Part shown: piece after piece, positions 9,378 to 39,139 of the stretch | Layout of the letters: the number at the start of each line of letters is the position of its first letter | Position numbering within the stretch: position 1 is the stretch's first letter | Virus record (IMG/VR): IMGVR_UViG_3300020034_000044 | Location: 1-39,139 of that record | DNA from: a virus | Strand: one strand, 5' to 3' | DNA length: 39,139 bases | Made by a program: the position numbers and the translations under genes | Notes under the pieces: generated by a model | Told to the model about the DNA's origin: nothing | Databases searched by the model: none | The model's input: the letters and a program-made list of their open reading frames with translations, nothing else

Positions 9378-9848
9378 ATGGCCACCGGCACAATTAAATG
9401 GTTTGCACAGGGCTTGCTCGATCTGGGCAACAAGATACACAACTTATCCAGCGATTCGCTGCGTCTTGGCATCGTTACCAGTGCAACCGTGCCAACGCTG
9501 TCCACAGCAGCTCCACACTGGGGCGGCACTGGAACCACCAACTTTGCAACCAATCAGGTAGGCACCGGAGGCACGCAATACACCGGGCCTAAGACGCTCG
9601 CGTCCGTGACGTGGACGCTGGTATCAAACGTGCCAACGCTGCGCGTTGCTGACATTGTGATGACGCAGGATGCATCAGGCTTCACGACCGGCGCATACGG
9701 TATTCTTTACAACAACACGGACGCGAACAAGCGTGCTCTGGGATTCGTGGAATTGCGCTCTGCCGGTAATTTGTCGTTGGTTGCGAGCGCGGTAACGATT
9801 GACTGGGGCGGCGCGGGTACTGACGTGCTGACGATTACTCAATCGTGA
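9378..9848 (+). CDS. Virion structural protein (156 aa)
   Basis: ATG 9378 follows AGGTAAC. The product starts ATGTIKWFAQGLLDLGN, then becomes a Thr/Gly-rich beta protein (HWGGTGTTNFATNQVGTGGT) that ends WGGAGTDVLTITQS. Such proteins occur in head modules of phages with P22-like portals. It is likely a capsid-surface or assembly component. No enzyme motif. It opens the 5.9-kb block inserted between portal and scaffold. Confidence 0.65.
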   Translation: MATGTIKWFAQGLLDLGNKIHNLSSDSLRLGIVTSATVPTLSTAAPHWGGTGTTNFATNQVGTGGTQYTGPKTLASVTWTLVSNVPTLRVADIVMTQDASGFTTGAYGILYNNTDANKRALGFVELRSAGNLSLVASAVTIDWGGAGTDVLTITQS

Positions 9849-11464
9849 TACCAGGCGGCGCACGGCCTTATGTTGGCGGAGGGCCTACTGCGCCGACATG
9901 GAACGGCGTGCCTCCGCTGTCGTTCGCGCTGGACGAAATCAAGTCTGTGTCGGTTACGGCTTATGTCGATGATTACAGTTCCGGCACTGACGTTATAACG
10001 CTCGATGTGACCAGTGCGGCCTTGCCTACAGGATTAACGTTCAACGGCACGCAATATGTATCAGCCGGCTCGCAGTCGATTGGTGACACGGCTCTCGTAT
10101 ACCTGAGCATCAGCAGAAGCGGCGGGGCTGGCGTGCGCAGTCCGGCGATGACGATACACGTCGCTGATGTGCTGCGGTTCAGGACTGTGCCAACGATTAA
10201 CTTTGATCTTGGCGATGCGGAGAATGTTGATGTTGAACCGTATCTGATTAACCCGCTTTCGCTTGATGTTGACTATTCGCAGATTGGAGCGTCGCTACCC
10301 TCCGGCGTCACTTTCAACGCTGGCTCGCATCAATTTGAGTATGACGGCGGCGGCGCTGCCGGAACGACTACCGGAGCGCAATTGCAGGTAGATCTGGAAG
10401 CGGCCCCTGGACTGACGCATCTTTTTCTAGGATCTGACCCAGACTGCCCGAACTGGTCGCTTTCCATGAAGCACGTAACCGCTTCATTCTGCCCGGCGAA
10501 TAACCGCATGTATTTTCATAACGGAGACTACCGGCCCGGTGGCAGCCGTTACCCCGGCCTGACTCTGACCGATCAATCTTACTGTCAAGAAATGTGGTCG
10601 CTGGATATCGCGGCTCGTTTGGCAGACCCTACTAACGTAGCGGCGGGCTGGCGCTTTGAGTATTCCTACATCGGCAATGGTGGCAGCACCGTTCAGCCGA
10701 AACACCCTGATTTTTGCGGGTTGCCTTGGGACACAACGCGAAATGTGTTCTGGATGGTTCCGGGCACTCTTGTGGCGGCGAGTCAGAACGCGCCGGGAGA
10801 AACGTCTGGCACAGTGAGCGATACCAATTTCCGCTGGTATGAAATGATGCAGTTCAATGTTGGAACCAATGTTTGGTCTACTTTCCCTGCTTACGGTGTT
10901 GGGCCTGATTTTGGCGAAACATGGATGTCGATCTACGACCCGGTACGCGACAGGCTGGTGCGCTCTGGATTGAATGGCGGCTCTGGCGGGGTGCTCAATA
11001 TTTTTGACTGCGCTGCAACGACATGGCTATCCGCAGTGGGTATGGGCGAATGGCCCGTAAGCCACCACACCATACGAATATCAAAGCAGTATCTTGCCGC
11101 CGACATGTCGGCGCGTTTCGTCTACGCCATTGACGACACCGAGCATCGCGTATTGCGATTCAGTCTGGACAGCAGTTACGCGGTTACGGACATGTTGGCC
11201 GCTCCTGGCGCTGCATGGCCATCAGACAATGACGCCTTTCTGCTCTTTAACTCAGTGCATCGCGTACTGGAATATTTCAACCTGACCGAGAGTGTGATCT
11301 ACACAGCGCCGGTAGATTCATTGCCGCTCGTCTGGACGCAGAGCGCCGATTTCGGTCGTCATGTACGCATGGGCGGATACGACCCGGTCAATGACGTGTC
11401 GGTGTGGTCGGGGGGTGTTGCGGAAGACGCCAACAATTTAATTACGTTCTACCAGCACACATGA
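9845..11464 (+). CDS. Ig-like plus beta-propeller structural protein
   Basis: The 539-residue product begins at GTG 9845, overlapping the previous stop. Residues ~20-190 hold two Ig-like beta domains of the putative-Ig kind (LPTGLTFNGTQY and LPSGVTFNAGSHQFEYDG are matching strands). The rest has blade-like repeats: DTTRNVFWMV, YDPVRDRLVRSG, DDTEHRVLRFS and YDPVNDVSVWSGG, each an aromatic/Asp turn followed by a strand, typical of Kelch or galactose-oxidase-type propellers. It probably decorates the capsid and contacts carbohydrates or a host surface. It is coupled to a second propeller gene. Confidence 0.65.
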   Translation: MIPGGARPYVGGGPTAPTWNGVPPLSFALDEIKSVSVTAYVDDYSSGTDVITLDVTSAALPTGLTFNGTQYVSAGSQSIGDTALVYLSISRSGGAGVRSPAMTIHVADVLRFRTVPTINFDLGDAENVDVEPYLINPLSLDVDYSQIGASLPSGVTFNAGSHQFEYDGGGAAGTTTGAQLQVDLEAAPGLTHLFLGSDPDCPNWSLSMKHVTASFCPANNRMYFHNGDYRPGGSRYPGLTLTDQSYCQEMWSLDIAARLADPTNVAAGWRFEYSYIGNGGSTVQPKHPDFCGLPWDTTRNVFWMVPGTLVAASQNAPGETSGTVSDTNFRWYEMMQFNVGTNVWSTFPAYGVGPDFGETWMSIYDPVRDRLVRSGLNGGSGGVLNIFDCAATTWLSAVGMGEWPVSHHTIRISKQYLAADMSARFVYAIDDTEHRVLRFSLDSSYAVTDMLAAPGAAWPSDNDAFLLFNSVHRVLEYFNLTESVIYTAPVDSLPLVWTQSADFGRHVRMGGYDPVNDVSVWSGGVAEDANNLITFYQHT

Positions 11465-12732
11465 CCAGCGTACAGAGCAACACATTCAATATCGTCATCA
11501 CGGATACGTCAGCGCTTCCGTCATGGCTTGCGGGTAAATCAGTGAACGAGTGGGTAGCAATTCCCAATTCGCAACTGACTGACTACGCTAATTTCAGCGA
11601 TGCCTATATCGTAGGCCTTGGCATGCCGCTCCCTAGCACGCACAGCAATACCATGACGTGGGGTCCAAATAAATACGGAGCCAATGCTGACAACGGACGC
11701 ACCGGCGAAAGTTGGGCGGTAGGCGGCGGGCATACCACTTACTCCGGCATGATGTTTGACGATCAGTTAAGCCGCGTGATAGTCGGCGGCGGCGATTCTC
11801 AGTGGGCCGAGAACTCCATGCACGCATTTGAATACGCTCACGATACGCCGGTGTGGGTGCAAAACATTATCGCTAGTTGCCACAAGGATTATTTCAAAAC
11901 TCCGAGCACGCACCCCAGCACATACCCAACCCCAACAGGCGGCGACGATACCCGCTTCTTCCGCATGTATGACGGCAGCCGGCGCGGCGGGCACAGTTAC
12001 TGGGCACCGCAGTTCTTGCGTGCTCGCAACTGGCTGACATTTTTCGGACAGCAGCAGGCATGGCCGGTGGACTTCGGGTTTGATCCAGAGGTGCATGTTG
12101 GTGATTTGGATACGGCTTTGTGGCTTGCGACCAACCCCATTGCAGATCGCCCGGCATTTGCCAATGACGAAGACGCATGGATGCAGAAGCATCCGCTTAC
12201 CGAGGATATTTACTTTTGGGGATCGGGAGGCATCCTGCGTAAGTGGGATGAATCGAGCAACGCCTACTCATCGGTGCTAGACCTGTTCAGCACGCACGAC
12301 GGCGCGCGACTGACTGGATCGATTGACTGGACAAATAACTACATCCTGTTCGCAAGCGGTGGTTTAGGCGGCTACACACACACTAATTTCCTTGTCGATC
12401 TGAGTTCGCCTTCTAAAGTTGATGTGACGGTCGTTGGCCCTTACGCGAGTGAATACATCGTCTATAGAAATGGCGGCCTGTGGTGGTGTCCCGATCAAGG
12501 GCACCACCGATTTTACAAAGACGATGGCTTCGTCTACAGCGTAACGCGTACCGGCTCCGCAGAGGTAACGGTGGATCGCGTGAGTATGACCGGCACCGGG
12601 CCAGTGGATCAAGCCAGCCAGAACAATAAAGCGGGCGGCATTCTGAACAACATGCAATACGACTTCAATCTCAATGGCATGGTGCTGCGCCTCGGCGACG
12701 CTTTGCCGATTTATTTTATGAGGACGGCGTAA
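11461..12732 (+). CDS. Second beta-propeller-like structural protein
   Basis: ATG 11461 overlaps the previous stop (ATGA). The 423 residues contain repeated propeller-like turns: WAVGGGHTTYSGMMFDDQLS, RVIVGGGDSQW, RNWLTFFGQQQAWPV and NYILFASGGLGG. The N-terminal SWLAGKSVNEWVAIPNS replaces the Ig region of its neighbour. It looks related in fold to the gene before it, perhaps by duplication and divergence. Role in the virion surface or glycan binding is inferred; no catalytic residues assigned. Confidence 0.6.
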   Translation: MTSVQSNTFNIVITDTSALPSWLAGKSVNEWVAIPNSQLTDYANFSDAYIVGLGMPLPSTHSNTMTWGPNKYGANADNGRTGESWAVGGGHTTYSGMMFDDQLSRVIVGGGDSQWAENSMHAFEYAHDTPVWVQNIIASCHKDYFKTPSTHPSTYPTPTGGDDTRFFRMYDGSRRGGHSYWAPQFLRARNWLTFFGQQQAWPVDFGFDPEVHVGDLDTALWLATNPIADRPAFANDEDAWMQKHPLTEDIYFWGSGGILRKWDESSNAYSSVLDLFSTHDGARLTGSIDWTNNYILFASGGLGGYTHTNFLVDLSSPSKVDVTVVGPYASEYIVYRNGGLWWCPDQGHHRFYKDDGFVYSVTRTGSAEVTVDRVSMTGTGPVDQASQNNKAGGILNNMQYDFNLNGMVLRLGDALPIYFMRTA

Positions 12733-18212: not shown

Positions 18213-18932
18213 TTGCCATCGCCATCCACAGTATTGCAGTTTATCGAAGATGCTCTGGGGCTTACCAACAGCGTCGGCGCAGACCAGACGCTAACAGCGC
18301 GGGAAACCTCCGACTGTCTGCGCGTCTATAACGACTTGCTGGAGCAAATGTCCACGCAGGGAATGTCTGTTTACGGGCAGGCGAACCAGACCTTTAACAC
18401 CATTGCGAATCAGGCCGTCTACAGCATCGGCGCAGGCGGAGACTTCAATACGGTATGGCCCGCGTCCATCAGCGAACCGGCCTATGCCACGATTCAGGGC
18501 GTCACATTTCCTTATACCTGCATCACGCAGCAGGATTACAACCTTATCGGCTACAAGGCGCAGTCTGGCGGCGGCACAGACCTCGCGCAGTTCTATTTGT
18601 ATGTCAACGCCTTCCCGTTGGGGCAAATCACGCTGTGGCCCGTTCCTAGCGCGATATTCCCCATAACGTTCACTATCGGCACGGTGCTGACTGCGGTAAC
18701 CAGTGCCAGCCAGACGGTGACTTATCCCGTGGGTTACGCCAAGGCGTTCAAATACGCGCTGGCTGTCGAATATGCGCCGATGTTCGGCAAGCAGATTACC
18801 AAGTATCCGGATGTGCTGAAAATCCACATCGACACGATGGCCGATATCAAGCGCATGAATTATCGTCCGCGCGTGCTGCGCACCGACCCGGCTTTGATGG
18901 GTAATCGCAACGCCGGTAATTGGCGGGGATGA
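18213..18932 (+). CDS. Head-tail connector / tail accessory factor (gp4-like)
   Basis: TTG 18213 with AAAGG seven bases upstream begins a 239-residue protein. The N-terminal half (VLQFIEDALGLTNSVGADQ, RETSDCLRVYNDLLEQM) is the helical part of P22 gp4-like adaptors, and the C-terminal half has AKAFKYALAVEYAPMFGKQ. Such proteins bind under the portal and start the tail. The gene order portal - coat - gp4 - gp10 agrees with P22. Family assignment from pattern, not from a search. Confidence 0.75.
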   Translation: MPSPSTVLQFIEDALGLTNSVGADQTLTARETSDCLRVYNDLLEQMSTQGMSVYGQANQTFNTIANQAVYSIGAGGDFNTVWPASISEPAYATIQGVTFPYTCITQQDYNLIGYKAQSGGGTDLAQFYLYVNAFPLGQITLWPVPSAIFPITFTIGTVLTAVTSASQTVTYPVGYAKAFKYALAVEYAPMFGKQITKYPDVLKIHIDTMADIKRMNYRPRVLRTDPALMGNRNAGNWRG

Positions 18933-20347
18933 TGGGCAACCGCATCTCCCTTTTCGGCTTGGGGCAGCTTTCAAAGTCGAGTTTTGTGACGGCCAAGGTT
19001 TTGCAGAATATGTACTGCGAGCAGCGGCCCGCTGGCGAAAAGTCCGGGCTGGTGGCTTATGGCACGCCCGGAGAATTGCTGTTTGCTGACTTCGGCGCGA
19101 CACCGTGCCGGGGCGCTCTTGAGTTTGAGCCGGGCAGTGTTGCCTACGTAGTCCATCGCGGCACTTTGTGGGAAATCAACAATGCCGGGGTGAAGGTTTC
19201 ACGGGGAACATTGCTAAGCGCGAGCGGGCGTGTGTCGATGGCACATAACGGCGTGCAGGTAATGATAGTCGATGGCGCATCCGGCTACATCTACAACACG
19301 CAGACGACCGTTTTTGCGCAGATTACGGATACGGATTTTCCGGCGAATCCAACCACGGTCACGTACCTTTCGCGCCGATTCATCATCAGCCTCTTGAATT
19401 CCAGCCGCTTCTATTGCTCGGATATCGACAACGGGCTGTCATGGGATGCGCTTAACTTCGCCAATGCGGAAACCAACCCCGACCCGATCATTGCGGTATT
19501 CGCCAGCAATGGGCAGTTGATTCTGATGGGCGCGATCAGTTGCGAATACTGGGGTAACTCTGGCGCTCTGGATTTCCCTTTTTCGCTGATACCGGGCACC
19601 GCCACGGAATGGGGCATTGCGGCGCGCTTTTCCATTGCCAAATACGACAATACGCTGGCCTATCTGGTGCGCAACCGCACCGGGCAGGTGATTCTGGCGA
19701 AGCTCAATGGTTACCTGCCGCAGCCAATATCTACGGTTGATTTTGACGCCATTATGAATAGTTATGGCGATGTGTCGAATGCCTCGGCTTATAGCTACAT
19801 GCTGGGCGGTCATCCGATGTACGTGATTACCTTTCCGTCTGCCGGTAAAAGCTGGCTGTATGACGGCAGCACCGGCATGTTTACGATGCTAAAGGGCTTT
19901 CAGGATACGCGGCATAACGGCGAGTTTTCGTTCACGCTGCTGGGCCGCACCATCGTTGCCGACTACGTTACCGGCAGGCTTTATGTTCTGACGGCTACCG
20001 CGCTGACCGATAACGGCGCATCCATCGAGCGCGAGATTGTCAGCGAGACCCTGGCCAATCAGGACTTGGGATTTATTGAACTGGATTGCCTGCGTGTTGA
20101 TGTCGAGGTGGGCGTAGGGATTACCACAGGGCAGGGCAGCAACCCGCAGATCGGTCTGTCGATATCACGCGATAACGGTAAAACATGGGGCGCGCAGATG
20201 TGGAAAACCGTTGGCGCTATCGGTGAATATTTGACGCAGGTGGAGTGGCGCAGGCTCGGGACGGCGCGGCAGGCCACTTTTAAATTATCGCTTACAGACC
20301 CGGTGCCGTTGGTGCTGGTGTCCGCTGTTCTAAATCCGGATAACTGA
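18929..20347 (+). CDS. Packaged DNA stabilisation protein (gp10-like)
   Basis: ATG 18929 overlaps the previous stop as ATGA (an adjacent ATG at 18932 is also possible). About 472 residues, essentially the same length as P22 gp10. It has a propeller-like, beta-rich design: FGLGQLSKSSFVTAKVLQN at the N-terminus, then YCSDIDNGLSWDALNFANAE, GTATEWGIAARFSIAKYDN and GSTGMFTMLKGFQD. The protein forms the ring that plugs the portal and carries the tail needle. Confidence 0.85.
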   Translation: MMGNRISLFGLGQLSKSSFVTAKVLQNMYCEQRPAGEKSGLVAYGTPGELLFADFGATPCRGALEFEPGSVAYVVHRGTLWEINNAGVKVSRGTLLSASGRVSMAHNGVQVMIVDGASGYIYNTQTTVFAQITDTDFPANPTTVTYLSRRFIISLLNSSRFYCSDIDNGLSWDALNFANAETNPDPIIAVFASNGQLILMGAISCEYWGNSGALDFPFSLIPGTATEWGIAARFSIAKYDNTLAYLVRNRTGQVILAKLNGYLPQPISTVDFDAIMNSYGDVSNASAYSYMLGGHPMYVITFPSAGKSWLYDGSTGMFTMLKGFQDTRHNGEFSFTLLGRTIVADYVTGRLYVLTATALTDNGASIEREIVSETLANQDLGFIELDCLRVDVEVGVGITTGQGSNPQIGLSISRDNGKTWGAQMWKTVGAIGEYLTQVEWRRLGTARQATFKLSLTDPVPLVLVSAVLNPDN

Positions 20348-20348
20348 T

Positions 20349-20627
20349 ATGGCACTGATTGGACAACCACCGACCACGCCCGTAGACACGGCGGACACGG
20401 ATAAGCAGGGCCGTATGGTCAAGCTCGCGCCGCCGTCCGAAGGCTGGCGCAACTTTTTCTCCAACGTGTTCAATATCTGCAATGCGCTGACACTGAGCGG
20501 CACCACGGTGCAGCGGCCCTCGGTGGGCCTGTGGACTGGGCGCATCTTTTGGGACTCAACACTGCAAATACCTGTGTATTACGCCGGCGGCGGCGTCTGG
20601 AAAAATTCCGCAGGAGCGCCGGTATGA
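20349..20627 (+). CDS. Small tail-module protein (92 aa)
   Basis: ATG 20349 begins directly after the gp10-like stop. Features: a proline-rich start (IGQPPTTPVDTADTDKQG), WRNFFSNVFNICNALT, and a C-terminal W-x-G-R-I-F-W-D and PVYYAGGGVW pattern seen in short phage tail proteins. Function unknown. It overlaps the cupin gene (ATGA). Confidence 0.6.
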   Translation: MALIGQPPTTPVDTADTDKQGRMVKLAPPSEGWRNFFSNVFNICNALTLSGTTVQRPSVGLWTGRIFWDSTLQIPVYYAGGGVWKNSAGAPV

Positions 20628-20944
20628 CGTTACCCGCTGGAGTTTCGATTAAGCACCATTTCATGTATGCCAAGGAAAACATCATTTCGGCAGGCATGAA
20701 GGTGCCGCAGCACAGGCATAAATACGATCACTACTCGATGCTGGTCAAAGGCTCTGCGGGAGTGCAGGTGGACGGTAATACGGTTCTCTACACGGCTCCA
20801 GCGCTCATCCTGATTGAAGCGGGCAAAGAGCACATGGTCACGGCCATTACCGGCGTGGAGTGGTGGTGTCTGCATGAAACCGATGAGCGCGACGTTGCGA
20901 AAATAGACGCCGCAGTAGTGGAGGATGGCGTTGAACTTTCTTAA
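20624..20944 (+). CDS. Cupin-fold protein
   Basis: ATG 20624 overlaps the preceding stop. Residues 25-75 hold the cupin pattern: MKVPQHRHKYDHYSML gives H30, H32 and H36 (metal-ligand type), then VKGSAGVQVDGN and a second motif IEAGKEHMVTA with H70. The fold usually binds a metal and a small molecule, either as an enzyme (dioxygenase, isomerase) or a sensor. It is coupled to a 2OG-oxygenase-like gene, so the pair may act together. Substrate unknown. Confidence 0.75.
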   Translation: MTLPAGVSIKHHFMYAKENIISAGMKVPQHRHKYDHYSMLVKGSAGVQVDGNTVLYTAPALILIEAGKEHMVTAITGVEWWCLHETDERDVAKIDAAVVEDGVELS

Positions 20945-21512
20945 AATATCTTCGGGTATCGACGTTATGCCGCTGGCTATGGAACTTGCGCGCCAGCCTG
21001 AGCTATGGAATCAGATCACGACACGGCTGGCCTTTGCGGGCAGCCCGCACCGCGAATCCGACGATATCTGGATGCGCTACAAGGATCAGTCCGCGAACAT
21101 CGCCAGCGGTGACTTTAGCGACTTTGCCGACGAACACGATCCTATCTGGTATCCGGCGTTTTACAAGTTGCCGTCATCGGCAAAGTTCATTTTTGACCTG
21201 ATGGCCTATGTCAAAGCGGAACGGCTCGGCGGCGTGATTATTTACCGCGTGCAGCCCGGCAAGCAGATTTACCTCCATGCCGATCAAGGATGGCACCCGG
21301 AGTATTACGACAAATTCAACCTTGCGATTCAAAGCCAGCCGGGATGTGCTTTTTACTATCCGGATCAGGGCGAAGCAATGGAGCAGGTGACAGGCGATAT
21401 GCACTGGTTTCGCAACACCGTGCGGCACGGCGTCATCAATAAAAGCGATCACGATCAAATCATCATGACGGTGTGCGTACGAACGCATGCCAGCGGTTCC
21501 AAGGAGAAATAA
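20925..21512 (+). CDS. Aspartyl/asparaginyl hydroxylase-like 2OG-Fe(II) oxygenase
   Basis: ATG 20925 lies within the cupin gene, so the two are coupled. The 195 residues show the double-stranded beta-helix core: IIYRVQPGKQIYLHADQGWH with H118-x-D120 as iron ligands, GCAFYYPDQGE, then MHWFRNTVRHGVINKSDHDQ with H168, and R186 as the likely 2-oxoglutarate contact. These positions match the Asp/Asn beta-hydroxylase family. It should hydroxylate a protein or peptide using 2-oxoglutarate, O2 and Fe(II). A virion or host target is inferred. Confidence 0.75.
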   Translation: MALNFLKISSGIDVMPLAMELARQPELWNQITTRLAFAGSPHRESDDIWMRYKDQSANIASGDFSDFADEHDPIWYPAFYKLPSSAKFIFDLMAYVKAERLGGVIIYRVQPGKQIYLHADQGWHPEYYDKFNLAIQSQPGCAFYYPDQGEAMEQVTGDMHWFRNTVRHGVINKSDHDQIIMTVCVRTHASGSKEK

Positions 21513-25555: not shown

Positions 25556-27154
25556 ATGGCCGTTAAAGTATCGCCATACGGCCCAAAGCCGCAATTCGTG
25601 CTCGCCAGCGGATTACCCGCAGTAGGCAATAAGCTGTTTTTCTACGTCGCCGGGTCCGTCAATACCAAGCAGAACACCTACACGGATTCGACCGGCCTTG
25701 TCGCCAATACGAATCCGCTGGTTCTGAATGCGCTCGGCGAGCCTTCGACAGAAATATGGTTTACCACGGGGCAGTCGTACAAGATGGTGTATGCGCCATC
25801 GACGGATACCGACCCGCCAACGTCTCCGATCTGGACTATAGACAACCTGACCGGCATCAATGACACGACCACCACAATAGATCAGTGGGTATCGTTTACC
25901 GGCGCCCCGACATTTGTATCGGCTACCTCGTTTACTTTGGCGGGCGACCAGACCAGCACGTTCCACATTGGGCGGCGCGTCAAAACCACTAATAGCGGCG
26001 GCACGATCTACAGCACGATCAGTAATGCCGTGTTCGGCGCGGTGACTACAGTTACAGTAGTCAATGATTCCGGTACTCTGGACTTGGGTTTGTCGGCTGT
26101 TAGCTATGGCCTGCTGTCATATCAGAATCCGTCCATCCCGCAAATTATCTCAGCGGGCAATGGCGTAACCGTAGTCTGGGCGAATGGCCGCGCTACTATT
26201 TCATCGTCAGCCATTCAGCCGATTTACGCGATTACAGCTACGCGAGCATCCAATGCCGAGACAATAACGGTCACGCCTGCCACTGCCGCAAACCTGCAAT
26301 TCAGGAGCGATGTAGCGGGCACAGGGACTTACACGGACATTGCATTTTCAGCGCCGATTACCCTGACGCTTTCCAGCGGTTCTACGGTAGGCGCAATAAA
26401 TGCTGTGCCATTCCGCCTGTGGATCGTGGCATTCAATGATGCTGGTACCTTGCGGCTCGGCGCGGTCAAGACGGTATCCGGCACTGACATCATGAACTTC
26501 CGCGCAGACCTGGCTTACTCGGCTACAGCGGAAGGCGGCGCGGGGGCGGCGGACTCGGCGCAGGTCATTTACTGCGGTAATGCCGTGACCACTAAGGCGA
26601 TTGTGATTCTGGGCTATCTGGAATACACGCTGGCGACGGTCGGCACATGGGTAACAGCACCGTCAAAGATTCAGATTTACCTGCCCGGCACGCCGCTCCC
26701 TGGTGACACGGTGCAGGAGGTCTCGCAGATAACCGGCGCCGCCACGTCAGGCACTACGGTATTGCCCGCCGATAACACGACGCCGCAAAACAACGAGGGC
26801 GACCAGTACATGACCAAGGCTATCGTGCCGAAGTCTGGGGCAAACCTGCTTGAGCATAACGTATTGGGCCATTTCGCCAGTTCTACTACCAACAATATGG
26901 GTATGGCGATGTTTCAGGATGCGACCGCAAACGCTCTGGCGTCATCGTTTTTTGTGTGCAGTGCGGCGAATATTGCGGGGCTGGCGCAGATTTATTATCG
27001 CATGGTGTCGGGCACGGTGGTATCGACCACGTTCAACGTTCGCGCGGGCGGCGGCTCGGCTGGCACTACGTCATTCAATGGCCGCGATGCCGGGACTGGA
27101 TTCTTTAACGGCACGATAACCAGCTATCTCAAAATACGGGAAATCATGGCATGA
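25556..27154 (+). CDS. Tail fibre / receptor-binding protein
   Basis: GAGGTG precedes ATG 25556. The N-terminus (YGPKPQFVLASGLPAVGNKLFFYVAGSVN) is the particle-anchoring module common to podovirus tail proteins, with a following TKQNTYTDSTG and LNALGEPSTEIWF. The shaft (residues ~90-370) is Ser/Thr-rich beta. The C-terminal ~130 residues (GHFASSTTNNMGMAMFQDAT) form a separate compact tip. Length 532 residues. It should bind the host surface; no glycan-degrading motif is apparent, so fibre rather than spike is the safer call. Confidence 0.75.
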   Translation: MAVKVSPYGPKPQFVLASGLPAVGNKLFFYVAGSVNTKQNTYTDSTGLVANTNPLVLNALGEPSTEIWFTTGQSYKMVYAPSTDTDPPTSPIWTIDNLTGINDTTTTIDQWVSFTGAPTFVSATSFTLAGDQTSTFHIGRRVKTTNSGGTIYSTISNAVFGAVTTVTVVNDSGTLDLGLSAVSYGLLSYQNPSIPQIISAGNGVTVVWANGRATISSSAIQPIYAITATRASNAETITVTPATAANLQFRSDVAGTGTYTDIAFSAPITLTLSSGSTVGAINAVPFRLWIVAFNDAGTLRLGAVKTVSGTDIMNFRADLAYSATAEGGAGAADSAQVIYCGNAVTTKAIVILGYLEYTLATVGTWVTAPSKIQIYLPGTPLPGDTVQEVSQITGAATSGTTVLPADNTTPQNNEGDQYMTKAIVPKSGANLLEHNVLGHFASSTTNNMGMAMFQDATANALASSFFVCSAANIAGLAQIYYRMVSGTVVSTTFNVRAGGGSAGTTSFNGRDAGTGFFNGTITSYLKIREIMA

Positions 27155-28008
27155 CCATCATCGCAACACGCTACCTGAACGACTCGCAGACTGATATCCC
27201 CGTAGTCGCAGGCCCGGCGACCATTGCGCTAAACGCCTACGGGTTCGGCCAATTGCCCGGCGTAATCAACTACGGCGGCACATACTATGACTGCACGCAA
27301 CCCGGATTAATCAGCTTTTTTGACACAAATTCCGGGGTAGCGGCCCGGCGTCCCATGTGGACGGGCATCGGCAAGACCGGGCAGGATTGGATAAACGCGG
27401 TTTACGGCTGGATTTCGGCCTGTTCGTGGATGCACGTCCACGGAACGGCGGACGAGGGGCTGACGCAGGCTACTCTGGCTGGCTGGATGAAGCAGCACAA
27501 AGCGCGGCTGCGCTGCGGGGCGATCGTTGACTTCATGGTGTACATCCTGCCGCAACTGGGTGTGTACGCGCGCCGGGTGGGCGTGCTCACCGGCAAGGCG
27601 CCCAATGGCTACGATGACGGGCATATCTGCTTCGAGGCTTATCTAGGTGGGCGCTGGCGCTTCTGGGACTTAACAAACGGCGCCTACTATGCCGATGCGA
27701 ACGGCGACCACCTGAACCTGAAAGAAATCATCGCCAAGGGCATCAATAACTGCGTGCGGGTGCGGGTCGATGCCGATCGGGATTTTTCCTGTGACCCGGC
27801 GGGGAGCATCTGCTTCGGCGTTTATTTCGAAACCATGCGCAAGACGCCGCAGGGCATGACGGACTGGTACGACCGCATTTTCGCCATTCCCTACGTGGGA
27901 TCGACTGCGTTCATTCCGGCGCAATACGCTGGCAGCGCGGGCTGGGTGAACAGTCTGGGTATTGGTGTTGTCACAGAGGCATCGTGGAATGCCACGTTTT
28001 ACCCATAA
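27151..28008 (+). CDS. Transglutaminase-like (Cys-His-Asp) protein
   Basis: ATG 27151 overlaps the tail-fibre stop. In the 285-residue product, residues 115-180 follow the transglutaminase-like core: QHKARLRCGAIVDFMVYILP with C122, GVYARRVGVLTG, DGHICFEAYLGGRWRFWD with H158 and D173, the expected Cys-His-Asp triad and Trp spacing. This superfamily includes peptidases, amidases and crosslinking enzymes. It stands between tail fibre and membrane-protein genes, where phages keep their endolysin; no standard endolysin is present. Cell-wall hydrolysis or tail modification are both inferences. Confidence 0.65.
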   Translation: MTIIATRYLNDSQTDIPVVAGPATIALNAYGFGQLPGVINYGGTYYDCTQPGLISFFDTNSGVAARRPMWTGIGKTGQDWINAVYGWISACSWMHVHGTADEGLTQATLAGWMKQHKARLRCGAIVDFMVYILPQLGVYARRVGVLTGKAPNGYDDGHICFEAYLGGRWRFWDLTNGAYYADANGDHLNLKEIIAKGINNCVRVRVDADRDFSCDPAGSICFGVYFETMRKTPQGMTDWYDRIFAIPYVGSTAFIPAQYAGSAGWVNSLGIGVVTEASWNATFYP

Positions 28009-28358
28009 TGACGCCTATGAAGATACGCGAAGAAGATGAGGCTGGCGGCTCCAACTATAAGGATCGGCGGTGGACGCTCGACAGAAAGCTAAGCCTATCT
28101 ATATTGGGCACTCTCGCCGGGTTGATCGTTTCCATATTTATTGCTGGATGGAATTTTGGCAGTCGCGTTACGGTGATCGAACTTACCCAATCGAATCAAG
28201 GCGTCGCCGCGATAAATAGAGAAGCGGAGCAGCGCAGAACGGATGATAGGCAGGATGTGCGGACGCGAGAGGACAGCGTTTTAATGCGTGCTGAAATAGC
28301 GTTGATGGCCGCAAAAATTGATCGGCTGTCCGACCAAATTGGCAGGCTCCCGCGTTGA
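28008..28358 (+). CDS. Membrane protein with coiled-coil, lysis-cassette candidate
   Basis: ATG 28008 shares its A with the previous stop (TAATG); ATG 28017 is an alternative start. The protein (116 aa) has a charged start, one membrane span (LSILGTLAGLIVSIFIAGW) near residues 30-50, and a long charged helix (REAEQRRTDDRQDVRTRED) ending SDQIGRLPR. A holin-like or inner-membrane spanin-like role fits position and topology; neither is proven. Confidence 0.65.
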   Translation: MTPMKIREEDEAGGSNYKDRRWTLDRKLSLSILGTLAGLIVSIFIAGWNFGSRVTVIELTQSNQGVAAINREAEQRRTDDRQDVRTREDSVLMRAEIALMAAKIDRLSDQIGRLPR

Positions 28359-28444
28359 TGGGCTGGCTCATGGCCTTCGTAATGACCCTCCTGTTAATCG
28401 CAAGCCTGCTATTTAACATTTACTTACTTGAGCATATTGATTGA
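28358..28444 (+). CDS. 28-residue membrane peptide
   Basis: ATG 28358 overlaps the preceding stop as TGATG. The translation MGWLMAFVMTLLLIASLLFN then IYLLEHID is almost entirely hydrophobic. It overlaps the next tiny ORF by 8 nt. Ribosome site is weak, so coupling to the upstream gene would be needed. A holin or antiholin accessory role is inference. Confidence 0.45.
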   Translation: MGWLMAFVMTLLLIASLLFNIYLLEHID

Positions 28445-28526
28445 GATTCTTGCGACAGTTGTAGTTTTGTGCATGATCGGAATTCTGGTTATTTTATTAA
28501 TACTGGTTTGGGAGGATGGAAAATGA
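28437..28526 (+). CDS. 29-residue membrane peptide
   Basis: TTG 28437 overlaps the end of the previous ORF and the frame reaches TGA 28524-28526. The product has MIEILATVVVLCMIGILVIL and a charged WEDGK tail. Its end carries GGGAGGA, the ribosome site of the next gene, and overlaps that gene's ATG (ATGA). TTG start lacks a clear ribosome site, so confidence is limited. Confidence 0.4.
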   Translation: MIEILATVVVLCMIGILVILLILVWEDGK

Positions 28527-28684
28527 GTCCAATTTCGATATTGTTGATCGTGTTATTGATCGTTCTGCTTGTCGGCGCGTTCCCGGCATACACCCTGGCA
28601 CCGCACTATGGTTACGGGCTTGGTGGTATCGGCGGGATTCTGCTGATTGTTCTTGTTGTGCTATTGCTTACGGGGCGGCTGTGA
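28523..28684 (+). CDS. DUF3309-like double-span membrane protein
   Basis: ATG 28523 has a perfect GGGAGGA six bases upstream. The 53 residues are two hydrophobic stretches (SPISILLIVLLIVLLVGAFP and LGGIGGILLIVLVVLLLTG) around a Pro/Tyr/Gly loop (TLAPHYGYGLGG), the layout of DUF3309 small proteins of proteobacteria. In this position it is a good class II holin candidate. The family function is unknown. Confidence 0.6.
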   Translation: MSPISILLIVLLIVLLVGAFPAYTLAPHYGYGLGGIGGILLIVLVVLLLTGRL

Positions 28685-28848
28685 AATCCGCCGCGGCGAT
28701 TCTGGCGCTGTGTCTCACCGGCTGCACCAGCATTCCATCGATAGAAGCCTGCGACACCGTGCGCTATACGCGGGACGGTCTTAAATACTCGGTGTCTTTT
28801 TCGGACTGCCACGTTCAGGTGAATGCGCCTGTGCCGGGGCTGAGGTGA
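28681..28848 (+). CDS. Small lipoprotein (o-spanin-like candidate)
   Basis: GTG 28681 overlaps the DUF3309 stop (GTGA). The N-terminus KSAAAILALCLTGCTSIPS is a lipoprotein signal with lipobox LTGC, so the mature 42-residue protein would be anchored at Cys 15. The short Cys-containing mature part (EACDTVRYTRDGLKYSVSF) differs from Pro-rich o-spanins. Outer-membrane lysis or another envelope role is inferred from its position. Confidence 0.65.
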   Translation: MKSAAAILALCLTGCTSIPSIEACDTVRYTRDGLKYSVSFSDCHVQVNAPVPGLR

Positions 28849-28852
28849 CATT

Positions 28853-29227
28853 ATGAAACTAGAAATACATGTATCACCGATTGAAATCAATCTGAATTGT
28901 CGGAACGTCAACGCCGATGACTTTATCTACAAACAGTTGGCAAAACTTAATCTCATAATGGAGAAGCACATGGCAGCAATAGACGATATCAAGGCGGCAA
29001 TCAAGGATGTGAAGGATGCGGCAGCACTGGAAACGCAGCAAGCAGCAGATCGCCAAACCCAATCCGTAGCAGCAATTCAAGCGCTGACGGATCAGGTAAA
29101 GTTTTTGCAAGATCAGATTAACCAAGGCAACCCTATAACGCCGCAGGATGTCACGGATATCATCACTGAATTGGGATCAGTCAAAACCCAAGTTAGTGGA
29201 ATCATCCCTGACGTGCCAGCCCCTTGA
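28853..29227 (+). CDS. Coiled-coil protein near the lysis cassette
   Basis: ATG 28853 follows the lipoprotein gene by 4 bp. The 124 residues start KLEIHVSPIEINLNCRNVNA, then form a helical region (residues ~28-95, with KHMAAIDDIKAAIKDVKDA and QALTDQVKFLQDQINQG), and end GIIPDVPAP. An internal ATG with a ribosome site (GGAGAAGCACATGG, Met near residue 40) could start a shorter form. Function unknown; a trimeric structural or lysis-control protein is possible. Confidence 0.6.
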   Translation: MKLEIHVSPIEINLNCRNVNADDFIYKQLAKLNLIMEKHMAAIDDIKAAIKDVKDAAALETQQAADRQTQSVAAIQALTDQVKFLQDQINQGNPITPQDVTDIITELGSVKTQVSGIIPDVPAP

Positions 29228-29575: not shown

Positions 29576-29776
29576 TTGGCAGATGAACCGTGCGATTGCA
29601 TACTGTCTGAGTGGTCTCTGTGGTGTCCGCTGAATAACTGGTCTCTGTGCAAAGACGGTACGCAGTGGCGTTATGAGGTTCGCTGGCGAACGGTGGTAAC
29701 GCCTGCGGCTAATGGTGGGAACCTCTGCGGGCTACAGGGGGAGCGAAGGACGATTACGCGGGAGTGTCCGGCTTAG
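29576..29776 (+). CDS. Thrombospondin type-1-like mini-protein
   Basis: The rightward ORF from TTG 29576 encodes 66 residues with ILSEWSLWCPLNNWSLC, DGTQWRYEVRWRTVVTP, NGGNLCGLQGERRTITREC. The W-x-x-W-x-C start, alternating W/R ladder and six-plus Cys match a thrombospondin type-1 repeat. It fills exactly the gap left between two minus-strand genes, overlapping the second by 22 bp at its 3' end. The start lacks a clear ribosome site. Adhesive or structural function is inference. Confidence 0.5.
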   Translation: MADEPCDCILSEWSLWCPLNNWSLCKDGTQWRYEVRWRTVVTPAANGGNLCGLQGERRTITRECPA

Positions 29777-38130: not shown

Positions 38131-38513
38131 GATTGGTTGGCCTTAGCTATGGCGGCATCTGTCTTGGCACGCAATGCCGTAATCGACGGACTGCTTCCTA
38201 ACATGCGTTCACGAGCTTCTTGCAAGGCGTCTAGGAGACCGTGGTTAGTTTCGCTAACCATGACTAGGCTAACGACAAGCGCTTCCTTATCAGCCCGCAA
38301 TTCGGCTACCTGAAATTCCAATTCGTTAAGCAGGTCCGCGAAGTTATCGCTGTGACCCGTTGCGAAACCGTTTTTAATGATCCATGCCGCAAATTCCTGT
38401 TTTAGTAATCTGTATGCAGAGGCGCGGATAAATTCGCCGTTGCTGGATGGCTCTAAGTGATCGTAGCGAAACTCGTAACGGGTAGGCTCATCTAGTGAGT
38501 GGCGGGCGTTCAT
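38127..38513 (-). CDS. Coiled-coil early protein (128 aa)
   Basis: ATG 38513 overlaps the stop of the pentapeptide gene as ATGA, with GAGG 8 bases upstream. The N-terminal ~60 residues ([20 protein letters not shown]) are followed by a coiled coil ([32 protein letters not shown]). Found directly behind the pentapeptide gene, so co-expressed with it. Function unknown. Confidence 0.6.
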
Positions 38514-39139
38514 TTCGCAGCCTCAAGCTCTGCCACGTATGAGCGCGACTCAAGCCATGCGAACGTCTCTTTGTTGTCTCGATAAAACATTTTCGATGCG
38601 ACCGGGGCCTGAATCATTCCCGCCATTGCCGGTTGAAGATCACGCACTTTCGGATTGGTAGCGCATACTTGCAGCCATCCGGCGAGACAATGCGTTGTGC
38701 CGCAAATAGCTTCCTCGGCACACGAACGATTGCGCCATTCTTCGCCCTCGTGCCAATGGCCCATGTCGAGCAACTTCTGATTGTCGAGGATGATTTCGCG
38801 CACCTTGTCCAGATTGGCGATTGATTCCTCTGGCGTTGCTGATGGGATATCGGTAATGGCACCCGCGAGGTTGGCACCCGTGAAGTTGGCATCCGTGAGG
38901 TCGGCACCCGCGAGGTTGGCACGCGTGAGGTAGGCACCCGCGAGGTCGGCACGCGTGAGGTAGGCACCCGTGAGGTTGGCACGCGTGAGGTAGGCACCCG
39001 TGAGGTTGGCATCCGTGAGGTCGGCACCCGCGAGGTCGGCACCCGCGAGGTTGGCACGCGTGAGGTCGGCACCCGCGAGGTTGGCACCCGTGAGGTTGGC
39101 ACCCGTGAGGTAGGCGCGCGCTTTAACCGCAGCCTCTAC
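38510..39139 (-). CDS. Pentapeptide-repeat protein, main part (N-terminus at 206-1)
   Basis: This is the body of a protein of about 234 residues whose ATG is at 206. Residues 34-118 are 17 pentapeptides of the A(N/D/Y)LTG/AG/TR type, one rung per quarter turn of a right-handed beta-helix. A short linker ([14 protein letters not shown]) follows, then a ~95-residue C-terminal domain with [17 protein letters not shown] and ESRSYVAEL. Pentapeptide proteins can mimic DNA or bind DNA gyrase, but most phage members are uncharacterised. It is transcribed from a promoter at 244-272 under the Cro-like operator. Confidence 0.85.
38861..39115 (-). repeat. 17 tandem 15-bp repeats coding pentapeptides
   Basis: Units read GCC(A/G/T)ACCTC(A/G)CG(G/C)(G/A)T with very few changes, mostly at the fixed variable codons. 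Near identity, even at synonymous sites, indicates recent expansion by slippage or recombination. Confidence 0.9.
39014..39139. repeat. Right copy of the 126-bp end overlap
   Basis: Identical to 6-131; see that entry. One of the two copies should be removed to give the unit genome of about 39,013 bp. Confidence 0.9.

Follow-up and report, generated by a model that had tools for sequence, protein, structure and literature searches.

Organization of the locus and of the phage genome

The window, by which we mean the whole stretch of DNA analysed (39,139 nucleotides), corresponds to an entire IMG/VR record. The enzyme considered here is encoded between a tail fibre gene and a series of small open reading frames, the genes and residues of interest being as follows:

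25556..27154 (+): tail fibre/receptor-binding protein, directly upstream of the enzyme gene (ATGA overlap)
27151..28008 (+): predicted transglutaminase-fold cysteine enzyme, 285 aa (alignment, AlphaFold2 model, Foldseek)
27514..27516 (+): codon of C122, predicted nucleophile, at the N-terminus of model helix 122-136; invariant in 21/21 sequences
27622..27624 (+): codon of H158, within the DGH motif; model strand 157-165
27667..27669 (+): codon of D173, at the end of model strand 168-173
28008..28358 (+): one-TM coiled-coil membrane protein, with a weak PHROG 'membrane protein' match (the listed ORF starts at 27984)
28358..28444 (+): possible 28-aa single-TM peptide, MGWLMAFVMTLLLIASLLFNIYLLEHID, from reading of the sequence
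28525..28684 (+): DUF3309 small membrane protein (longer listed ORF, 28469-28684)
28681..28848 (+): 55-aa lipoprotein-like ORF with a GTG start and an LTGC lipobox
28853..29227 (+): coiled-coil protein closing the cluster, function not assigned

Translation of 27151-28008 on the plus strand gives a protein of 285 residues with C122, H158 and D173 in place, confirming the coordinates, length and numbering of the first-pass annotation, and the frame antisense to the gene is interrupted by stops. The same annotation had set the gene between the tail fibre and a membrane-protein cluster, and this position is borne out by overlaps at both ends. Because the ATG of the enzyme overlaps the stop of the fibre gene by 4 bases (ATGA, 27151-27154), and its own stop shares bases with the ATG of the downstream membrane-protein gene (TAATG, 28006-28010), the gene is predicted to be translationally coupled on both its 5' and 3' sides. 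The genes at 28008-29227 have the look of a lysis cluster and yet include no recognisable lysis enzyme, in a tailed-phage genome that is probably complete; the ORF at 28681..28848 might be called o-spanin-like, by its size and place only.

The window encodes a P22 portal, a P22 coat protein, a gp10-type stabilisation protein, a scaffold and ejection proteins, and by these genes the phage can be classed as a P22-like podovirus, whose nearest named relatives by coat protein are two Manatee Spring phage records, Rhodoferax phage P26218 and EBPR podovirus 1. The P22-like podovirus Xanthomonas phage PBR31 has the same module order (ejection proteins, spike, one gene, lysis genes), but differs in possessing a holin, an endolysin and a spanin and in lacking a homologue of the window enzyme. 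The ends of the contig (1-131 and 39009-39139) overlap over 131 bp. The three mismatches are confined to the first bases, and beyond the shared region the sequence becomes unique; for these reasons the record is probably one full circle of ~39.0 kb and the genome complete, the linear label in IMG/VR probably stemming from the inexact overlap.

Fold and family of the enzyme

The window protein taken alone had no Pfam match at E values up to 10 and gave only noise in PHROGs, where a weak 'anti-restriction' match (E 0.034) was dismissed as such. BLAST found relatives among phage records only in three Bordetella phages (PBb001, PBb002 and PY223), whose hypothetical protein XSF69587.1 shows 30% identity over 99% of the length and shares the C, H and D catalytic set. 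Plasmid records held no match, and queries with the protein and with the two-sequence set against IMG/VR and GTDB contigs found nothing. The family was opened by a degenerate DNA pattern built on DGHxxxExxxxGxWxxxD, which retrieved eleven homologues from IMG/VR, and further scans and profile searches brought the set to 22 sequences, including the window protein, the Bordetella proteins and three second copies. One further record, L038, matched the DNA pattern yet proved by profile search to be no relative of the family.

The alignment of 21 of these sequences (A5) has eight invariant positions: G98, C122, R141, G157, H158, E162, W169 and D173. For part of the rows, DGH, E, W and D were fixed in advance by the search pattern. 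C122, R141 and G98 were free in every row, and three paralogues outside the pattern, with DNGH or EGH in place of DGH, still have the C, H, E, W and D. C122 is the sole invariant residue among the seven cysteines of the window protein. Such a pattern of conservation is far beyond chance.

The first-pass annotation had recognised a transglutaminase-like Cys-His-Asp core and had pointed to PF01841 as the profile to compare. Direct comparison of the window protein with that profile gave no match, even at E 10, but two of its homologues, the L042 and L007 paralogues, pass the cut-off of 23 bits (27.1 and 25.3 bits); the family profile finds these two members at 2.5e-30 and 6.8e-42, and hmmscan saw PF01841 in three of 13 family members. 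AlphaFold2, run on A5, returned a confident model (mean pLDDT 92, pTM 0.89), in which C122 opens helix 122-136 while H158 and D173 lie on neighbouring strands (157-165 and 168-173), the order predicted by the model being that of papain and the transglutaminases. When the model was compared with the PDB by Foldseek, only chains of 3isr, a transglutaminase-like enzyme, fell below E 1e-3, and the matches that followed (FXIII, TG2, TG3, NAT and the vasohibins) all belong to the transglutaminase clan; antibody matches in the PDB profile search were discarded as noise. In the alignment with 3isr, H158 and D173 fall on residues of the same kind, and the 3isr stretch H-x-x-x-E-x(6)-W-x(3)-D is also present in the window protein, which has in common with the PF01841 superfamily the fold and both the order and the identity of Cys, His and Asp. 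VIA Z values of 7.9 (VASH1) and 7.3 (FXIII) are middling (< 8), and the assignment of the fold therefore rests on the model and the sequence together. The family alignment, the PF01841 matches of relatives and the confident model all back the proposed core, and we regard the window protein as a well-supported transglutaminase-fold cysteine enzyme with a predicted activity. It differs from the PF01841 core in having a beta-rich N-terminal part and an extra C-terminal part, both lying outside the core.

Two other groups invite comparison. The BTLCP (Peptidase_C93) proteins, which include HvyA and the genes of river viruses, are likewise Cys-His-Asp and transglutaminase-like; they are often exported, are known in phages and are tied to surface structures (PMC4241560, PMC11283719). 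The present family differs from them, since a search with PF06035 at E values up to 10 came back empty for both the window and the records carrying homologues. The pseudomurein endoisopeptidases PeiW and PeiP (PF12386) resemble the window protein in being viral cysteine enzymes with a C-H-D triad, but they differ in acting on an archaeal wall, in being the wall-lysing enzymes of their own viruses and in belonging to PF12386; PeiP came fourth in a fold search of BFVD, as a distant match (E 0.059), and a Pfam search of the window protein found neither the PF12386 catalytic domain nor PMBR repeats. Neither Pfam nor PHROGs gives these proteins a model of their own, so the family appears to be undescribed in both libraries, and in the literature searched we found no description of it or of its link to a fibre gene. 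Transglutaminase-like phage genes as such are already known.

Export signals differ within the family. By simple hydrophobicity and motif rules, rather than a trained predictor, seven of the 22 sequences carry Sec- or Tat-type signals, recognised by a hydrophobic stretch at the N-terminus or by a twin-arginine motif, or else a lipobox; the same rules showed no export signal or signal peptide in the window protein. When placed on the tree, the label requires five changes, of which supported branches force at least four, and it is not more clustered than when shuffled (99 of 500 shuffles were as low). Because homologues have gained or lost export signals several times, there is a hint that the substrate lies outside the cytoplasm, in the envelope. 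Second copies bearing a signal or lipobox occur at L007 12150-13190, L035 10215-11186 and L042 1509-2477, near lysis genes, and the same three phages also carry a fibre-linked copy.

Endolysins in the window genome and in related phages

The claim that no recognisable endolysin is found elsewhere in the window stands after four kinds of search. Pfam scans of 62 plus 96 ORFs, on both strands, found no endolysin family; PHROGs, searched with the 62 ORFs, gave no endolysin among the matches listed (the best 25 families for half of the ORFs); six-frame searches for PF00959, PF01510, PF05838 and PF00182 were empty; and 14 endolysins or endolysin candidates of related phages, used as tblastn queries, had no match in the window. 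For GH25, SLT, CHAP, NlpC/P60, M23 and M15 the coverage is that of the Pfam scans of ORFs, the six-frame searches being confined to the four families named. Nor did the six-frame searches and the remaining ORFs reveal an endolysin ORF that had been frameshifted or overlooked; truncation of the contig as the cause of the missing endolysin is made unlikely by the 131-bp overlap of its ends. The enzyme is thus the sole recognisable candidate lysis enzyme of its genome.

The related phages differ in this respect. Of the 15 other phage records analysed, 12 encode an ordinary endolysin (GH24, GH19, SleB or M15) alongside the homologue; the three without a counted endolysin are two 7-kb fragments and L030. 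The six-frame search for Phage_lysozyme (PF00959, GH24), which found nothing in the window, was positive in eight homologue-bearing IMG/VR records and in PBb001, and other homologue records have GH19, SleB/Hydrolase_2 or the M15-type endolysin phrog_465. PBb001 is, unlike the window phage, a Mu-like myovirus, and its annotated lysozyme (PF00959, E 8e-15) lies 1.3 kb downstream of the homologue. The window's own clade comprises eight sequences (support 100/99), and five records there carry an endolysin. In the 12 records with an endolysin, the homologue is not the only lysis enzyme of its phage. In L030, the lysis slot holds a phrog_3108 protein with a lysozyme-like look (9491-9961; GYQESKYKVRIQYGNGPARSYWQFE), possibly of an unannotated endolysin family; we did not count it as an endolysin, as PHROGs gives no function and the PDB no match.

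Because 12 of the 15 homologue records encode an ordinary endolysin, the enzyme would not be the endolysin in most of its family. The first-pass annotation's suggestion of a new type of endolysin accordingly gains little from the family, and what speaks for it is the window genome itself; a true endolysin in the same genome, which would tell against the suggestion, was found in relatives and not in the window. For the window phage, we are left with either a lysis enzyme or mode that has gone unrecognised, or the enzyme having taken over the job. In the latter case it would be a transglutaminase-fold amidase or endopeptidase, cutting murein cross-links after the holin has acted and replacing a lost canonical endolysin. 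The probable completeness of a genome with no endolysin family and the coupling of the gene to the membrane-protein and lipoprotein cluster are in keeping with this, and PeiW and PeiP, viral C-H-D cysteine enzymes able to lyse the pseudomurein wall, provide a precedent, their triad having been likened to that of transglutaminases (PMC2989375). We nevertheless consider such a replacement improbable, given the ordinary endolysins alongside homologues in 12 records, five of these in the window's own eight-row clade, the Sec- or Tat-type signals or lipobox in seven of 22 rows, the lack of such a gene in the near phage relatives, and a window protein in which Pfam detects no murein-binding domain. 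If true, a virus presumed to infect bacteria would have an endolysin of transglutaminase fold, distinct from the archaeal PeiW/PeiP type. In either case, the window genome offers a way to test a rare question, how host lysis comes about in a tailed phage that lacks a recognisable endolysin.

Association with the tail fibre and possible role

At most homologue loci a tail fibre gene immediately precedes the enzyme gene, in podovirus- and myovirus-type records alike, the fibre and the enzyme in the latter coming after baseplate J and its neighbour. In record G010 the enzyme gene (11264-12124) lies in the tail module, and with the lysozyme (18623-18994) 6.5 kb away it goes with the fibre and not with the lysis genes. 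The first ~100-135 residues of the window fibre match tail spikes of PBR31, Rhodoferax P26218 and a Manatee Spring phage. Several of the fibres adjacent to homologues have their C-terminal half in common, whereas the window fibre shares only its N-terminal part, and that with spikes of its own lineage. No homologue was present in 13 loci of the lineage recovered via gp10, about six of which span the slot while several end before it, and on this account the enzyme gene looks like a mobile accessory gene.

The explanation that we favour, giving it about an even chance of being right, is that this podovirus carries a papain-like (transglutaminase-fold) enzyme as an accessory partner of its fibre, acting on amide bonds of the host envelope. 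Enzymes with this fold and a C-H-D triad form an acyl-thioester on the Cys, which is then resolved by hydrolysis, transamidation or acyl transfer. The range of reactions in the transglutaminase clan has been surveyed (PMC10318531). C122 would accordingly attack an amide (or ester) bond of an envelope protein, peptide or modified glycan, and the acyl-enzyme intermediate would most likely proceed to hydrolysis or acyl transfer. Signal-bearing relatives would be exported to the periplasm, while the signal-less window form might be carried to its substrate on the virion, close to the fibre, or be set free at lysis. The case for an envelope substrate comes, by analogy, from those relatives, the window protein itself having no such signal. 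The benefit could lie in access to the host surface or in its alteration, either at adsorption or against re-adsorption, and the enzyme would not be the main murein hydrolase of the phage. The nearest functional parallel may be HvyA, a periplasmic Cys-His-Asp transglutaminase-like protein that controls the capsule and the phage sensitivity of Caulobacter, and whose catalytic residues are needed to keep the cells uncapsulated and sensitive to phage phiCr30 (PMC4241560). Of the roles named in the first-pass annotation, that of a tail enzyme acting on the host surface fits the gene context best, the action on the surface itself being conjectural. The missing endolysin of a seemingly complete genome is a gap that the favoured explanation leaves unfilled.

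A virion-maturation enzyme, cross-linking or trimming the tail fibre via isopeptide bonds, would also account for the tight linkage to the fibre gene in podoviral and myoviral records, and the fold is common to the cross-linking transglutaminases. We think this very unlikely, however, because the adjacent fibres are of unrelated types, with no C-terminal sequence common to the window, L015 and the L028-type group, because exported forms of the enzyme would miss cytoplasmic fibres, and because relatives in the lineage have the fibre without a homologue. The cross-linking of virion proteins raised in the first-pass annotation is possible but unsupported.

The slot between the fibre and the lysis genes, where the window gene sits, is a usual site of cargo. 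The enzyme might be cargo (a moron) acting in the infected cell or lysogen and outside the virion, for example by changing the capsule or a receptor against superinfection. Paralogues with a signal or lipobox lie after or beside the lysis genes in L007, L035 and L042, HvyA governs capsule and phage sensitivity (PMC4241560), and, of the auxiliary genes that river viruses have in common, BTLCP was the most frequent (PMC11283719), all of which would suit such a role. Against it, the window member lacks an export signal, and its coupling to the fibre gene points to late expression; with no integrase recognised in the window, a lysogenic state is hypothetical, and the BTLCP parallel is weakened by the lack of a PF06035 match in the family. 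On balance we hold the cargo role to be unlikely, and return to the fibre partner as the preferred reading. The family is spread over podo- and myovirus-type genomes behind a receptor-binding gene, and, should it act on the surface, the fibre-linked set, in which glycan depolymerases and esterases predominate, would gain a peptide- or amide-acting enzyme.

Some other features of the window are recorded here. A 66-aa ORF at 29576-29776 (+) is thrombospondin type-1-like (PF19028, spondin-like), which is odd in a phage; PF19028 had a best E of 3.5e-4 among the scanned ORFs and was assigned to this one by reading its Trp/Cys pattern. A 15-bp tandem repeat at both ends of the contig would encode, on the minus strand, a pentapeptide-repeat protein that runs across the circular junction (38510-39139 joined to 1-131). 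Between portal and scaffold, two large beta-rich fibre- or adhesin-like ORFs (9845-12732, +), among which a He_PIG match falls, are unusual for the P22-like order. Genes for a cupin and an Asp/Arg-hydroxylase-like protein of the 2-oxoglutarate type lie at 20531-21512 (+), between the gp10-like gene and the ejection proteins, and relatives of the cupin stand at the same place in L043 and L044.
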